Source: Kiritimatiellia bacterium
GTDB lineage: Bacteria; Verrucomicrobiota; Kiritimatiellia; RFP12; UBA1067
Length of the DNA: 34,029 nt
Assembly (NCBI GenBank): GCA_017652705.1
Contig: JAGCAM010000014.1
Coordinates: forward strand, 1-34,029
Reading direction: 5' to 3'
Below the pieces are notes generated by a model. It saw only the letters and a program-made list of their open reading frames with translations. It had not been told where the DNA came from and searched no databases. How positions within the stretch are numbered: the stretch's first letter is position 1; each line of letters starts with the position of its first letter. Positions 24,834-33,982 of this stretch are shown here, piece by piece. The position numbers and the translations under genes were made by a program.

Positions 24834-24862
24834 TTGATTATTCCGGTTTTATTTGGTACAAT
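24834..24862 (+). promoter_or_regulatory. Promoter of the glycine-rich exported protein gene
   Basis: TTGATT (24834-24839), a 17-bp spacer and TACAAT (24857-24862) with a TGG extended -10. The leader of about 20 nt carries AAAGGA 8 nt before the ATG at 24889. Confidence 0.65.
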
Positions 24863-24888: not shown

Positions 24889-27800
24889 ATGAAGACTTTT
24901 GTCCGGGCGCTTGCTGTTGCGGGCGCGGTGTTTTGTGTTTTTGCATTTGCGGGAGCGACAGGCGCCTCGGCCGGGGGCGTTTCTCGCACCTGGGTAGGCG
25001 GCGTCGATGGCAGCTGGACAACGGCCGACAACTGGTCGCCGTCGGGCGTTCCTGCGGCGGGCGATGACGTGACTATAGGCGCAGGTTGCGCGGTGACGGT
25101 GTCGGTGGCGACTGCGGAGCTCAACAGCTTCTCGCTGTCTGGCACGGGGGCGAAGCTCACAATGGCGGAGCCTGTGCGCGCGGCGGTTGCGGATTGCGTC
25201 ACGGTGCTCAGGGCGGGCACCGTCAGCATTACAGGCGGCGCGGTCGTGACGCACGTCGCCAACAAGCAGACGTATGCGGAGTACTCCGCCAATACGTCCG
25301 CGGGATGGATGATCGACGGCCGAGTCAACATCGAATGTACGACCTTTACCCTCGACGCCGATTCGAAGATCGACGCGAACGGCCTCGGCTATGACTGCGC
25401 GAAAAGCGCCCGCTATCCTGCGACGGTCGGGCCTGGCGGGCTCTATCCCAAGTACTGCGACGGCTACAACGCCACCGGCGGACATGGCGGCTACGGCTGT
25501 GGCTGGATTTACGATATGAACGGTGGAGAGGCCCAGGTTGACGTCATAGGCGGCCAGCCGTATGATACGCCGGAGGCGCCTGTCATGCCGGGGTCTTCCG
25601 GAACGGCCAACGGATCTACTTCCAATCTAAGCGGAGGCGGTGTCGTGCGGGTTGCCGTTTCAGGTACGGCGACAATCGACGGCATCGTCTGCGCTGACGC
25701 TCGTACGATGAATTCCAATACCAGCTTGGGCTCAGGCGGTTCCGTCTGGGTGACGGCCCAAGTCGTCCGCGGCTCTGGCAAGCTGACGGCGAACGGCGGC
25801 TTTAGCGGTTCTGCCTATGGTTACAATTATTGCGGGGCCGGCGGCCGCGTGGCCCTGGTCTACGATCCCGCCGAGCAGGACGAATCGGATGCCGCACTCG
25901 GCGTGCCGACGCTGCGCCTGCAGGCGGCGACCAAGTGGACGCATGCGAGCGCGAAGAGCCGTCCTCAGGCCGACGTCGGTTCGGTCTACATGACGGACGA
26001 CCGGTTTCTCGGCGAGACGTTCGACGGCACTCGCGGCGTCATGGACGGGCAGATATACTGCGGCACATGGAGCCGGTGGCATCCCCGGTCGCTCACGGTG
26101 ACCGGTTCGTGGGTGCGTTTTCCGGAGGGGACGGCTACCAACCTTGCGCTTTCTGGCGACGTGCTCGTGTCGGGTGTCCACGGGCGGCTTGAGATCGGCG
26201 GTGACGAGGCTTTTCCGTACTGCTTTTCGGTCAATACGACTGTCGAGGCCACGGAAAGGGCCTCTCGGGTGCGCCGGATGAGCGCGGTCCGTCCGCGGCT
26301 CGCCTGCGCGAACCTGACGCTGGCCGACGGCGGACAGTTCATGATATACCCCGGCTTGACGAACGGCGTCGACCAGGCCGACGGCGCGGAAATCGTCCTC
26401 ACTGGCGACTTCACGGTCGGAACGAACTCCTTCGCCCTCTTGCCATGCCATCCTACGAACGGCGCCGCCGTTAAGGTGACGGCGGAGAACGTCAAGGTCG
26501 ATCCCGGTGCTTGGCTGTCTTCGGCCGGGCAGGGCTTTATGGAATACAAGTTGCCGGGCACGACGGTGTCGACGGGAGGCATAGCACCGGGCTATCCCGA
26601 TTATGTGCGCGCCAACGGCTTTGCTCCCTCCCATGGCGGCTACGGCACACGCTACGTCAACAGTCTGACGGCGATGTCCTATGATTCGCTGGAAAATCCT
26701 CTTCTTCCCGGCAGCCCTGGTAACCGCTCGTACAACAACCGCGGCGGCGGTTCTGGCGGCGGTGTGGTGTTGATCGTGGCGCGTAGCAAGGTGACGGTCG
26801 ACGGTACTGTTGATGCGCGCGGACAGAGTCTGGACAGTGCCAATACCGCTCCCGGTTCTGGCGGCACGGTGAACATCACATGCCGGACGATTGCAGGCTC
26901 CGGCACGATTGACGCTTCCGGCGGGCGGCACAATGTCGCCAACAAGTATTACCCGAATTGGGTCGGCGCCGGTGGTCGAGTTGCCGTCCACTATGACCGC
27001 GGGGCGCAGGCCGCTTCCGGGGACATCGTCGCCATCACGTGGAAGTGCGGCACGCAGGTCTGCGCCGAGACGGTCAATCATTGCTGTCGTGCCAATGAAG
27101 GCGGACTCGGGACTGTCTGGTTCCCTGATACGAGGCTTTTGGGGCATGCGTTCGGCTCCGGTACGCTGACGTCAGGCGAGTTCCACTTCGGCACATGGAC
27201 GGGCTGGACGCCTGCGGACGTCGTCGCGGACGGTCCGGACGTGAACGTGCGGCTCGTGTCGGACGGCAACGACTTTGTCATCAACGGCAATCTGACGATC
27301 CGCAACGGCGCGGCCTTGGGCTTCGGCGGCGGCACGAACTACTGTACGCATCCGACGACCTATCTGCCGTTTTCGCCGGCCGGGAAGGGGGCGGTCGTCA
27401 AGGTCAACGGCAGCGTCATCATGGAAGCGCCCGGGCAGTCGGGGTGGCGCAACGAGCTGCATGTCTACGCGGGACATGGCTGCACGGTGCAGGCCGAAGA
27501 CGTGGGCGGCGTCTTGGAGATAGCCCGCCAGTTCATGATCGGCACGAACAGCTGGGTATATCCGTCGAGCGAACCGTATTCCGGCGAGTCGGTGAAGGTG
27601 ACGGTCGGCGGCAAGGTGAACATCGACCCGAACGCCGGATTTGACGCGACCGGGCTCGGCTACTCTGGCGGTTCGCATCCGGCGCGCGAGTGGCACAATG
27701 CGGGCTATGGCCCTGGCGCCGTCGCCGGCCGTGGCCGCGGCAGCGCCTATGGCGGCATCGGCGGATGCAGCGTGGGCTCGGCGACGACTAAGTTTCCTCT

Positions 27801-28275
27801 GCCCGGGTATGGCACAAGCGGCGAAGGCGTCCCGCTGTGGCAGATTCCGTCGAAGCCTGGCTCCGGCTCTTCTGTGGGCGACACTGGCTTTGGCGGACCA
27901 GGAGGCGGCTGCATCTGGATCGAGACGAAGAGTTCCTTCAAGATCGCCGGCAGTCTGATCGCCGACGGGCAAGGGGGTGCTATGGCCGGATGGTCATCCA
28001 GCGGCTCCGGCGGCGCGGTCTACGTTCGCTGCCGGCATTGGGTGCCGGACGAAACGGCCGTCGTTCGTGCCAAGGGCGGTGCGACCGGCGGCGCCGGCGG
28101 CGGCGGATGCATAGCGATCTGGCGCGCCATGGATCACGATCTGACGCCGACAAACGAGCGTACATATGTGAGCGCGCCTGCCGGCAGCTACGGCAATACT
28201 GTCCAGAAGGCGACCGACGGCACGATCTACTGGGGCGACCTGCCGATGCCGGGATTGATGCTGCTTGTGCGGTAG
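24889..28275 (+). CDS. Giant glycine-rich repeat exported protein
   Basis: An 1128-residue protein with a signal peptide (VRALAVAGAVFCVFAFAGAT) and an autotransporter-like entry motif (TWVGGVDGSWTTADNWSP). Three similar units of about 375 residues follow, each with a Gly-rich core: about 154-326 (IDANGLGY to GGRVALVYD), 537-703 (to GGRVAVHYD) and 911-1079 (IDPNAGFDATGLGY to GGGGCIAIWR). A GTWxxWxPxxL segment recurs between cores (GTWSRWHPRSL, GTWTGWTPADV). It ends in a hydrophobic-basic tail, PGLMLLVR. I infer a surface or secreted beta-solenoid-type protein; the function is unknown. A TTG-initiated extension to 24853 lies within the promoter. The deacetylase follows after 17 nt. Confidence 0.75.
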   Translation: MKTFVRALAVAGAVFCVFAFAGATGASAGGVSRTWVGGVDGSWTTADNWSPSGVPAAGDDVTIGAGCAVTVSVATAELNSFSLSGTGAKLTMAEPVRAAVADCVTVLRAGTVSITGGAVVTHVANKQTYAEYSANTSAGWMIDGRVNIECTTFTLDADSKIDANGLGYDCAKSARYPATVGPGGLYPKYCDGYNATGGHGGYGCGWIYDMNGGEAQVDVIGGQPYDTPEAPVMPGSSGTANGSTSNLSGGGVVRVAVSGTATIDGIVCADARTMNSNTSLGSGGSVWVTAQVVRGSGKLTANGGFSGSAYGYNYCGAGGRVALVYDPAEQDESDAALGVPTLRLQAATKWTHASAKSRPQADVGSVYMTDDRFLGETFDGTRGVMDGQIYCGTWSRWHPRSLTVTGSWVRFPEGTATNLALSGDVLVSGVHGRLEIGGDEAFPYCFSVNTTVEATERASRVRRMSAVRPRLACANLTLADGGQFMIYPGLTNGVDQADGAEIVLTGDFTVGTNSFALLPCHPTNGAAVKVTAENVKVDPGAWLSSAGQGFMEYKLPGTTVSTGGIAPGYPDYVRANGFAPSHGGYGTRYVNSLTAMSYDSLENPLLPGSPGNRSYNNRGGGSGGGVVLIVARSKVTVDGTVDARGQSLDSANTAPGSGGTVNITCRTIAGSGTIDASGGRHNVANKYYPNWVGAGGRVAVHYDRGAQAASGDIVAITWKCGTQVCAETVNHCCRANEGGLGTVWFPDTRLLGHAFGSGTLTSGEFHFGTWTGWTPADVVADGPDVNVRLVSDGNDFVINGNLTIRNGAALGFGGGTNYCTHPTTYLPFSPAGKGAVVKVNGSVIMEAPGQSGWRNELHVYAGHGCTVQAEDVGGVLEIARQFMIGTNSWVYPSSEPYSGESVKVTVGGKVNIDPNAGFDATGLGYSGGSHPAREWHNAGYGPGAVAGRGRGSAYGGIGGCSVGSATTKFPLPGYGTSGEGVPLWQIPSKPGSGSSVGDTGFGGPGGGCIWIETKSSFKIAGSLIADGQGGAMAGWSSSGSGGAVYVRCRHWVPDETAVVRAKGGATGGAGGGGCIAIWRAMDHDLTPTNERTYVSAPAGSYGNTVQKATDGTIYWGDLPMPGLMLLVR

Positions 28276-30508: not shown

Positions 30509-30706
30509 AGTAGTCGCGTGTGAAGCGCTCTCGCTCCTGCGGCAACTCATGTCGGCTGAGAATCGCGGAGCTGATGCCGTAGTGGTAACGGAGGCTGTTT
30601 GCCAGCCGTCGGAATTGTTTCTCAAATGTGCAAGGCTCTCCAGGGGCTCGACAGCGTTTTCCAAAGGTGGGGATTCCAGACTGAATCACCGAATCACCAT
30701 GTGGAG

Positions 30707-30735
30707 TTGACAGGCAAAAAGAATATGGATATAAT
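30707..30735 (+). promoter_or_regulatory. Perfect sigma-70 consensus promoter of the BspA-like gene
   Basis: TTGACA (30707-30712), a 17-bp spacer and TATAAT (30730-30735). The predicted start near 30742 gives a leader of about 28 nt with AGGAG 8 nt before the ATG at 30770. Confidence 0.8.
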
Positions 30736-30769
30736 AATCATCCTCAAACCGAAAATAGGAGTTCAGAGG

Positions 30770-33700
30770 ATGACAAGAAAGGGTTTTCGCAATAAGGCAA
30801 CATCAACGCTCCGCGCTGCGCTTGCGGTGATGACGTTCGGCCTCGCCTCGTGCGTTCTAGCCGAGACGGAAACCGTCGGCAGCTACACGTGGTCGTACCG
30901 CATCGTCGGCGGCAAGGCGGAAATCTACAAGGACGACGGTTCCGGCGACGGCACCACCGCCGTCTCGCCGAAGCCGACTGGCGCGGTGACGATTCCTTCT
31001 ACGCTCGGCGGCAAGACAGTCACAAGCATCGGATGTTATGCGTTCGACGAGTGCTCCGGCATGACTTCCGCGGCGATCCCCTCCGGCGTGACGAGTCTCG
31101 GGGATGGGGCGTTCAGGTACTGCAGCGGCTTGAAGAGCGTGACAATACCCAACTCCGTGACGAGCATCGGCTGGGGGGCGTTTTGGTCTTCTGGCTTGAC
31201 GAGCGTGACGATTCCCGCAGACATGACCTCGATTGGGGCGAATGCGTTCTATCTCTGCACGGCCCTGGCGGACGTGTACTGCTATGCCGATCCTGTCTTG
31301 TTGACATGGGGCGACGCAAGCGAGGACTTCAAGAGCGGCAAGGCGACGACGATCCACGTTAGGGCGGGACAGCTTTCGGGCTACAGTTCGAAGTTCGGCT
31401 CCACCGTTCGCGCCACCTTCGTCGGAGACCTCGACACCAATACGGAGACCGTCGGCGGCTACACGTGGTCGTTCCGCATCGTCGGCGGCAAGGCGGAAAT
31501 CTACAAGGAGGACGTGGCGGCCCCCGGCTATGGCGACACCGCCATATCGCCGAAGCCGACCGGCGCGGTGACGATTCCTTCTACGCTCGGCGGCAAGCCC
31601 GTCACGAGCATCGGGGATTCCGCGTTTCTCGGCTGCAGCGGCCTTACCAGCGTGACGGTTCCAGAAAGCGTGACGAAATTCGACAGGTCCGCGTTCTACG
31701 GCTGCACTGGCCTTGCGAGCGTGACGATTCCCGCGAGCGTGACATTAATTGGGGACTATGCGTTCTACAATTGCACGGCCATGACGGATGTGTACTGCCA
31801 TCCAGCTCCTGCTTCGCTGGCGTGGGGCAACGCAAGCAGCGACTTCAAGAGCGGCAAGGCGACGAAGATCCACGTGAAGTCCGGGCAACTTTCGGGCTAC
31901 AGTTCGAAGTTCGGCTCCTCTGTCCGCGCCACCTTCGTCGGCGACCTCGACATCAAGACGGAGACCGTCGGCGGCTACTCGTGGTCGTACCGCATCGTCG
32001 GCGGCAAGGCGGAAATCTACAAGGACGATGGTTCCGGCGACGGAACCACCGCCGTTTCGCCGAAGCCGACCGGCGCGGTGACGATTCCTGCTACGCTCGG
32101 CGGCAAGACAGTCACATGCATCGGGTGTCATGCGTTGGACGCGTGCACCGGCATGACTTCCGCGACGATCCCCTCCGGCGTGACAAGCCTCGGGGATGGG
32201 GCGTTCAGGTACTGCAGCGGCTTGAAGGGCGTGACAATGCCCGACTCCGTGGCGAATATCAGTTGGGGGGCGTTCTATAGTTGCAGCGCGTTGACGAGCG
32301 TGACGATTCCCGCAAACGTGACCTCGATCGGGGCGAATGCGTTCTATCTCTGCACGGCCCTGGCGGACGTGTACTGCCATGCCGATCCTGTCTTGTTGAC
32401 ATGGGGCGACGCAAGCGACGACTTCAAGAGCGGCAAGGCGACGAAGATTCACGTGAAGTCCGGGCAATTTTCGGGCTACAGTTCGAAGTTCGGCTCCTCT
32501 GTCCGCGCCACCTTCGTCGGCGACCTTGACATTCTCACGGTGACGTTCAACGCGAACGGCGGCAGCGTGTCTCCGGCCGCGCGCTCGGTCAACTACAACG
32601 CGGCGGTCGGGACGTTGCCCACGCCCACGCGCACGGGCTACACGTTCGCGGGCTGGTTCACGTCGGCGAGCGGCGGCACGCAGATAGGCACGGCGACCAA
32701 GGTGACGGCGGACGTGACGTACTACGCGCACTGGAAGGCGACCTACGCGGTGACATACAGGCCCGGCGCCTACGGCATGGGGGCCGAGCAGACCGCCACG
32801 AAGACCGAGGGCGTAGTGCTGGCGCTGAAGAACGCGGTCTTCACGCGTGAGGGCTACACGCAGACGGGGTGGGCCACGAGCGACGGGGGCGCGAAGGCCT
32901 ACGCCCTCGGCGCGTCATATGCCGTCAACGCCGCGCTTACGCTCTACCCGTTCTGGACTGCCAACACTTACGAGCTTACTCTCACGCCCAACAACACGAT
33001 GTATGGCACGGTGAGCGGCGGCGGGAATTACGAGGCGGGTGCGACGGCGACGCTGAGGGCGACGGCGAAGACGGGCAATGCGTTCGCGGGGTGGTTCACG
33101 GACGAGGCGTGCACTAAGCCGCTGAACCCAGCGGGCTACGACAACCGTAGCCCGACGGTGAAGATCGCAATGCCCGTGAAGGGCACGACGGTCTACGCGA
33201 TGTTCGTCACCGCGGCGGAGGCGAAGAAGTCGCTCAAGTTCTCGTCCGCGACGGCAAAGCTCGCCAAGACGCCCGCCAAGGCGACGGCGGGCAAGGCGTT
33301 CTCGCTGAAGCTCGGAATCTCGTCCGCCTCGCTCGTGACGGTGACGGCTACGGGCCTTCCGAAGGGGCTCAAGATAGACAAGGCGACCGGGGCGATAACA
33401 GGCACGGGGACGGTGTCGGGCGACTTCACCGCGACCGTGACGGTAAAGGACGCGGCGGGCAACAAAATCACGCAGAAGGTGAAGATAACCGTCGAGGCCG
33501 CCGCATACGCCAAAGGCGACTTCTATGGCACGGCGAAGCCCGGCAAGAAGGGCGACCCGATGGCGTATCTCCAGTTCACGGTCGGCAAGACCGGCAAGGT
33601 GTCCGGCAAGGTCACTTACAAGGGCAAGGCGTATTCGTTCAAGTCGACGCTCTCCTCCTGCACGGCGTCAAAGGCTGCGTTCACGCCGAGCGTGAAGATC

Positions 33701-33982
33701 GGCAAGGCGACTTTCAAGCCAGGCGCGGTGACGATACGCGAGACTGAGAATGCCGGCGGTTTCTTAGTCGAGGCGGCGAACAAGAAGGGCACCTTCACCG
33801 GGCAGAAGAAGGCGAACCTCGTGAAGAAGGGGAAGGCGCTCGCCAAACTCATTGGCAAGAGCTTCACGTTCACGAAGAAGACGAAGAACTCGGGCCTGAC
33901 TAAGAACGGCGACAAGCTGAAGGTGAAGCTGCTGACGGCGACAAGGTTACGGCGTCCGGCACTGTTAACGGCAAGAAGCTGA
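30770..33982 (+). CDS. BspA-type leucine-rich-repeat surface protein with InlB repeats (apparent 3' frameshift)
   Basis: 1070 residues as read. The signal region MTRKGFRNKATSTLRAALAV ends in LASC, a good lipobox, or in VLA for signal peptidase I. Three tandem modules follow: residues 33-224, 225-396 and 397-588, each opening TVGxYxWSxRIVGGKAEIYK and carrying LRR_5/BspA repeats (SVTIPxSVTSIGxxAFxxC). Next come two or three InlB/Listeria-Bacteroides B repeats (FNANGGSV...GYTFAGWF), a putative-Ig module (GLPKGLKIDKATGAITGTGT) and a Lys-rich beta domain from about 910. BspA/InlB proteins bind host or glycan surfaces. The stop at 33982 probably results from a one-base shift near 33930, after which the natural frame runs on past the window. 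Start 30770 is set by AGGAG and the promoter. Confidence 0.8.
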   Translation: MTRKGFRNKATSTLRAALAVMTFGLASCVLAETETVGSYTWSYRIVGGKAEIYKDDGSGDGTTAVSPKPTGAVTIPSTLGGKTVTSIGCYAFDECSGMTSAAIPSGVTSLGDGAFRYCSGLKSVTIPNSVTSIGWGAFWSSGLTSVTIPADMTSIGANAFYLCTALADVYCYADPVLLTWGDASEDFKSGKATTIHVRAGQLSGYSSKFGSTVRATFVGDLDTNTETVGGYTWSFRIVGGKAEIYKEDVAAPGYGDTAISPKPTGAVTIPSTLGGKPVTSIGDSAFLGCSGLTSVTVPESVTKFDRSAFYGCTGLASVTIPASVTLIGDYAFYNCTAMTDVYCHPAPASLAWGNASSDFKSGKATKIHVKSGQLSGYSSKFGSSVRATFVGDLDIKTETVGGYSWSYRIVGGKAEIYKDDGSGDGTTAVSPKPTGAVTIPATLGGKTVTCIGCHALDACTGMTSATIPSGVTSLGDGAFRYCSGLKGVTMPDSVANISWGAFYSCSALTSVTIPANVTSIGANAFYLCTALADVYCHADPVLLTWGDASDDFKSGKATKIHVKSGQFSGYSSKFGSSVRATFVGDLDILTVTFNANGGSVSPAARSVNYNAAVGTLPTPTRTGYTFAGWFTSASGGTQIGTATKVTADVTYYAHWKATYAVTYRPGAYGMGAEQTATKTEGVVLALKNAVFTREGYTQTGWATSDGGAKAYALGASYAVNAALTLYPFWTANTYELTLTPNNTMYGTVSGGGNYEAGATATLRATAKTGNAFAGWFTDEACTKPLNPAGYDNRSPTVKIAMPVKGTTVYAMFVTAAEAKKSLKFSSATAKLAKTPAKATAGKAFSLKLGISSASLVTVTATGLPKGLKIDKATGAITGTGTVSGDFTATVTVKDAAGNKITQKVKITVEAAAYAKGDFYGTAKPGKKGDPMAYLQFTVGKTGKVSGKVTYKGKAYSFKSTLSSCTASKAAFTPSVKIGKATFKPGAVTIRETENAGGFLVEAANKKGTFTGQKKANLVKKGKALAKLIGKSFTFTKKTKNSGLTKNGDKLKVKLLTATRLRRPALLTARS

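Follow-up and report, generated by a model that had tools for sequence, protein, structure and literature searches.

A seven-residue C-terminal tail on unrelated exported proteins: a candidate sorting or anchoring signal of one bacterial class, probably Kiritimatiellia

LPXTG/sortase and GlyGly-CTERM/rhombosortase systems are characterized by a modular C-terminal tail, which is carried by diverse passengers and which combines a motif with a helix and a basic cluster. The PEP-CTERM signal of exosortase systems is likewise short, C-terminal and present on many unrelated exported proteins, and comprises a PEP box, a transmembrane helix and an Arg cluster. The outer-membrane β-signal handled by BAM is a terminal strand of alternating hydrophobic residues, with a glycine near its start. 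To judge by its name, the choice-of-anchor Q domain (NF041518) presumably precedes, in other bacteria, a slot for any of several known surface anchors. The type IX secretion system (T9SS) of Bacteroidota acts on unrelated Sec-exported surface proteins, such as RgpB and HBP35, which possess a C-terminal domain (CTD) that is at least some 43 residues long and contains motifs B and D, and motif E as the final hydrophobic strand, including a conserved Lys/Arg (PMC11969387, PMC11285876). The very end of these domains is essential for translocation (PMC11285876, PMC11969387), and in HBP35 the last 22 residues suffice to target a fusion by T9SS (PMC11969387, PMC11285876). Here we compare with these systems a tail of seven residues that terminates a large glycine-rich protein and many proteins unrelated to it.

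The window analysed here (the whole stretch of 34,029 nucleotides) is contig C85 of a MAG of 1.66 Mb that is 67.7% complete (G000). On the forward strand, positions 24889..28275 encode, from ATG to stop, an exported glycine-rich protein of 1128 aa, recognized as an open reading frame and by its homologs in the same genome; an in-frame TTG upstream, at 24853, is also possible as a start. Both inspection and a simple hydropathy rule identify its N-terminal stretch MKTFVRALAVAGAVFCVFAFAGATGASA as a Sec-type signal peptide of about 28 aa (24889..24972, forward strand). Its C-terminus is GTIYWGDLPMPGLMLLVR followed by the stop codon, i.e. the protein ends with PGLMLLVR, of which the seven residues GLMLLVR and the stop (28252..28275, forward strand) form the tail. 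The sole Pfam match is a weak, N-terminal, G8-domain-like stretch (residues 49-117; 25033..25239, forward strand; PF10162, E=2.6e-4), which scores 21.3 bits, below the curated cut-off of 22.9; the same scan found no autotransporter domain, and the only NCBIfam match is a weak and local one to AgmC. The passenger resembles glycine-rich β-solenoid proteins (AgmC-like, G8-like) in its glycine-rich repeats and solenoid fold, but the matches are weak and local and the homologs outside the lineage have no tail.

The initial annotation proposed an internal triplication, and self-alignment bears this out. The three glycine-rich blocks cover approximately residues 139-326 (25303..25866), 516-703 (26434..26997) and 890-1077 (27556..28119), all on the forward strand, and end with GAGGRVALVYD, GAGGRVAVHYD and GAGGGGCIAIW, respectively. 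GAGG recurs at residues 316, 693 and 1068, with spacings of 377 and 375 residues, and Smith-Waterman comparison of the units against composition-preserving shuffles gave z = 26 for units 1 and 2, 20 for units 2 and 3 and 7.5 for units 1 and 3. The sequence blocks that all three units were said to share hold only in part: GAGG and PGS (residues 234, 607 and 990) occur in each unit, but SGGG is found only at residues 248 and 622, unit 3 is degenerate at the landmarks (PGGGC for SGGGV, GAGGGGCIAIW for GAGGRVAxxYD), and unit 2 has GQGF in place of GLGY.

Structure prediction, also suggested in that annotation, was carried out with AlphaFold2 for the last 270 residues, using an alignment of 12 relatives (A2), and returned a β-solenoid of moderate confidence (mean pLDDT 64, pTM 0.71) that includes the unit 3 block. 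The final predicted strand is GTIYWG (28219..28236, forward strand; alignments A1 and A2 and the secondary structure of the model), and the tail lies past it, outside the solenoid, irregular and with low confidence. Comparison of the model with the PDB by Foldseek gave no significant match (best E 0.15), while the top rows of VIA-align were β-solenoids, including bactofilin, an adhesin and SRRP, with tied rows and a best Z of 8.3; this resemblance may be to generic β-solenoids, and perhaps reflects a common arrangement and nothing more. A sequence search of the PDB found no relative, and the model of a second architecture (alignment A3) was poor (mean pLDDT 47).

When the window protein was searched against its own genome, paralogs were found on several other contigs, and the tail G-[LFM]-x-h-x-h-[RK], directly followed by a stop, terminates 10 of the 10 family members with a complete C-terminus, the window protein included, although this set was picked by homology without use of the tail. 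The endings are GLMLLVR (C85), GLLIWVR (C98), GFLLLLR (C21), GLTVIVR (C28), GMSIFVR (C52), GLLIYVK (C50), GLMLFVR (C35), GLMLFLR (C30), GFMLLLR (C47) and GLKVMLK (C97); a further member, on C82, was left out of the count because the contig end truncates it. An exact PGLMLLVR-like DNA pattern gave 0 matches, so that a looser pattern was required, and a scan of genome contigs with the whole window protein as the query found no relative. The pattern G-h-x-h-x-h-R-stop matched 20 times in this genome, against 9 times for the reversed pattern, and added proteins unrelated to the window protein, on C31 (a weak LamG-like match), C33 (574 aa, of no family) and C80, as well as others on C42, C62 and C69; a tail protein of 1008 aa on C6 ends with GLMIFVK. 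The expectation that other proteins of the genome would end in a similar way is therefore confirmed, by homologs and unrelated proteins alike. In 17 tail proteins of this genome, which total 15,684 residues, all 17 occurrences of the motif are at the terminus and none is internal.

Some genes of the same genome deserve mention on their own. Three tail genes are seemingly deleted internally (L018:6433-7071, 213 aa; L014:8408-8845, 146 aa; and a frameshifted remnant at about 5500 of L040), with the signal peptide and the tail kept and most of the passenger lost; these may be either real deletions or a collapse of repeats in the assembly. A translated stretch GKP(Y/D)AGNPHVRFDEGEVA, which resembles an in-frame reading of a repeated element, occurs just upstream of the starts of tail genes in two species (L014:8408-8845 and L109:205-1521). 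Within the window, positions 30599-33982 encode a BspA-type LRR protein with InlB-type repeats and three repeated LRR sections, whose C-terminus is KVKLLTATRLRRPALLTARS; since the tail is absent from it, the tail is not used by all exported proteins of the genome.

The tail is common on otherwise unrelated passengers. In a relative that is 92% complete (G010), it is present on about 30 distinct long open reading frames (e.g. GFKVIVR, GLIIIFR, GMKIIIR). The 47 tail proteins of both genomes, a set largely selected with the motif itself, fall into 20 clusters, between which BLASTP detects no similarity in the last 400 residues at 1e-4; conservation across them is confined to the last seven residues and does not reach the positions upstream. 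All 47 have F, L or M at position -6, though the pattern also permits I and V, and all 47 have R or K at position -1; the latter is partly set by the search pattern, yet it also holds for the 10 of 10 members found by homology. By a crude hydropathy rule, a signal-peptide-like start is seen in 11 of 12 complete proteins of the source genome and in 13 of 16 of the relative, a moderate enrichment over the 23 of 39 nearby open reading frames that satisfy the same rule. In choice-of-anchor Q proteins, the tail directly follows the domain in four of five matched tail proteins, the window protein not being among them, and the domain ends 11, 10, 11 and 16 residues from the C-terminus (L168, L172, L133 and L177). 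To judge from these sequences, the tail would sit there in the place of an anchor; it differs from the anchors that have a Pfam or NCBIfam model, since no model in either database was found to cover it. A search of the literature, confined to open-licence papers, found no description of the tail.

Counts of the pattern over related genomes contain chance matches, and lone matches are weak, because the motif is short and hydrophobic; each count is given here with its control. With the tight pattern and 58 relatives scanned, the genus (35 genomes) gave 345 matches against 70 in the control, and other families of the order gave 73 against 47. In a scan of 288 genomes of the class, with a more permissive second position and the reversed pattern as control, the genus gave 345 against 57 and other genera of the same family (36 genomes) 970 against 93, the highest count in a single genome being 126 against 9 (G228), with 82 against 1 in another (G297). 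Three further families are enriched (44 against 3 in f25, 49 against 3 in f45, 24 against 0 in f46), and two others are not (4 against 4 in f10, 5 against 16 in f31). Even in the genus itself, several species with small genomes lack the tail (G017, G021, G022, G181, G221, G274). In distant families, the second residue is preferably T or S (GTLILIR, GTMFIIR, GTVFLMQ, GSLIIVR). Homology to the solenoid led independently to further records; of the 17 that are PVC-type and have their C-terminus complete, 16 end with the tail, including a few variants with H or Q as the last residue and one with A for G; the 17th (L054:182-2284) ends with GTLVEVRYNQ, i.e. the tail plus three more residues. Three solenoid homologs without the tail come from Gammaproteobacteria, Hydrogenedentes and Acanthopleuribacter. 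A locus of family f25 (L165:13562-19605) comprises three near-identical tail genes in tandem, of about 670 aa, ending with GTLILVR or GTLILIR.

The tail is thus shared far beyond chance. We consider it probable, on the strength of these sequence comparisons, that G-[LFMTS]-x-h-x-h-[RK, sometimes Q/H]-COOH serves one class (probably Kiritimatiellia) as a modular C-terminal signal for sorting or anchoring, and that the window protein, as a large Sec-exported, adhesin-like protein built of β-solenoid units, is one of its cargos. The suspicion raised in the initial annotation, that the hydrophobic tail is a terminal sorting or anchoring signal, accordingly gains support from a tail family that extends over the genome and the class on non-homologous exported proteins, while the sorting role itself is inferred.

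The tail might instead merely cap the β-solenoid or form its last strand, and have no role in sorting. The glycine-rich passengers are indeed β-solenoids according to AlphaFold2 and VIA-align, and in many members the tail comes after a conserved GT-I/V-Y/W strand. However, the tail also terminates many non-homologous passengers, choice-of-anchor Q proteins among them, and is missing from solenoid homologs of other phyla, outside the lineage, which makes this explanation unlikely. Besides, the tail is irregular and of low confidence in the model, and neither unit 1 nor unit 2 ends with an internal copy of it.

A sorting role could also take the form of an ordinary outer-membrane β-signal, read by BamA, with the C-terminal strand being inserted in the way that the final strand of outer-membrane proteins is. 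The length and the alternation are similar (G, followed by hydrophobic residues at +1, +3 and +5). On the other hand, the tail ends with R or K and has no aromatic residue, whereas an apparent barrel protein of the same genome (L009:1880-3268) ends with QVDFKF, and the last 270 residues of the window protein, i.e. the region upstream of the tail, were modelled as a solenoid and not as a barrel. We regard this reading as very unlikely. The L009 protein itself appears to be a porin-like outer-membrane protein, and its ending an ordinary aromatic-ended β-signal.

Still less probable, in our estimate, is that the tail is the end of a divergent T9SS CTD. A feature like motif E, a terminal strand with Lys/Arg, is present in the tail proteins, and 28 of 34 genomes of the genus encode distant PorV/PorQ-like proteins. 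But conservation is limited to seven residues; motifs B and D (GxY) are absent upstream, 30 tails of G010 showing no conservation at positions -14 to -8, and the NCBIfam T9SS CTD models gave no match at E<=10 to ten tail proteins, taken either whole or as their last 80 residues. SprA (SprA_N, PF14349) was found in 0 of 34 genomes, in a search that had no positive control, as no control genome gave a match. The PorV-like matches all fall far below the cut-off; they are present in tail-less genomes and missing from the tail-rich G004, G008, G014 and G029, and this family was rejected as a partner of the tail. The matched proteins (L159-L164), of about 430 residues and with E-values down to 2e-12, under the cut-off, are found in most genomes of the genus.

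That the exosortase of the genus, present in 31 of 34 genomes and, in G000, encoded on a contig (C6) that has a tail gene shortly upstream of it, should accept the tail as an unusual substrate is hardly credible, since the tail lacks the PEP motif, the transmembrane helix and the basic cluster, PEP-CTERM models do not match the tail proteins, classical PEP-CTERM proteins exist in 28 of 34 genomes of the genus, and the two distributions dissociate, with about 30 tails and one weak PEP-CTERM in G010, and exosortase and PEP-CTERM without tail enrichment in G017 and G021. On that contig, the tail protein of 1008 aa is encoded a few genes upstream of the exosortase gene (L150:5763-7252), which overlaps an EpsI-like open reading frame; next come a glycosyltransferase-like gene and a GspE/PilB-like ATPase. 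The features of LPXTG and GlyGly-CTERM signals (motif, helix and basic cluster) are also absent from the tail; in the window protein it consists of the glycine, five hydrophobic residues and a single basic one, and no LPXTG model matches. The sortase-like partner foreseen in the initial annotation did not materialize: no such enzyme that tracks the tail was found, and exosortase, which was rejected on the above dissociation, has its own PEP-CTERM cargo and persists in tail-less species. The secretin family was rejected as well, being universal in the genus and hence not discriminating; each genome of the genus has one to ten secretin-domain matches, often above the need of one secretion or pilus system.

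If the tail is a sorting or anchoring signal, as we prefer to think, its proteins would be exported by Sec, owing to the N-terminal signal peptide that most of them exhibit, and an extended hydrophobic strand with a terminal basic residue would then be left exposed. This strand could be bound by one common, putative outer-membrane receptor, perhaps via β-strand augmentation, in a way that we infer by analogy to PorV, the presumed reader of the last strands of T9SS domains, and the receptor would bring the passenger to the surface and then hold or process it there. For folded passengers, a type II-like route is possible, given that secretins are universal in the genus. More tentatively, and with somewhat less than even confidence, we propose that one class (probably Kiritimatiellia) may possess its own surface sorting system, separate from T9SS, exosortase and sortase, in which a putative receptor or translocon reads a bare seven-residue C-terminal β-strand (G-h-x-h-x-h-R/K), the unrelated carriers of which would number up to about 100 in a genome.

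Exosortase and secretins persist without the tail in some species of the same genus, so that a comparison of tail-rich and tail-less genomes could propose the receptor by computation alone. If the proposed role is true, the tail points to a new outer-membrane receptor, and one short motif would predict the surface proteome of a widespread, almost uncultured class of gut and environmental bacteria.
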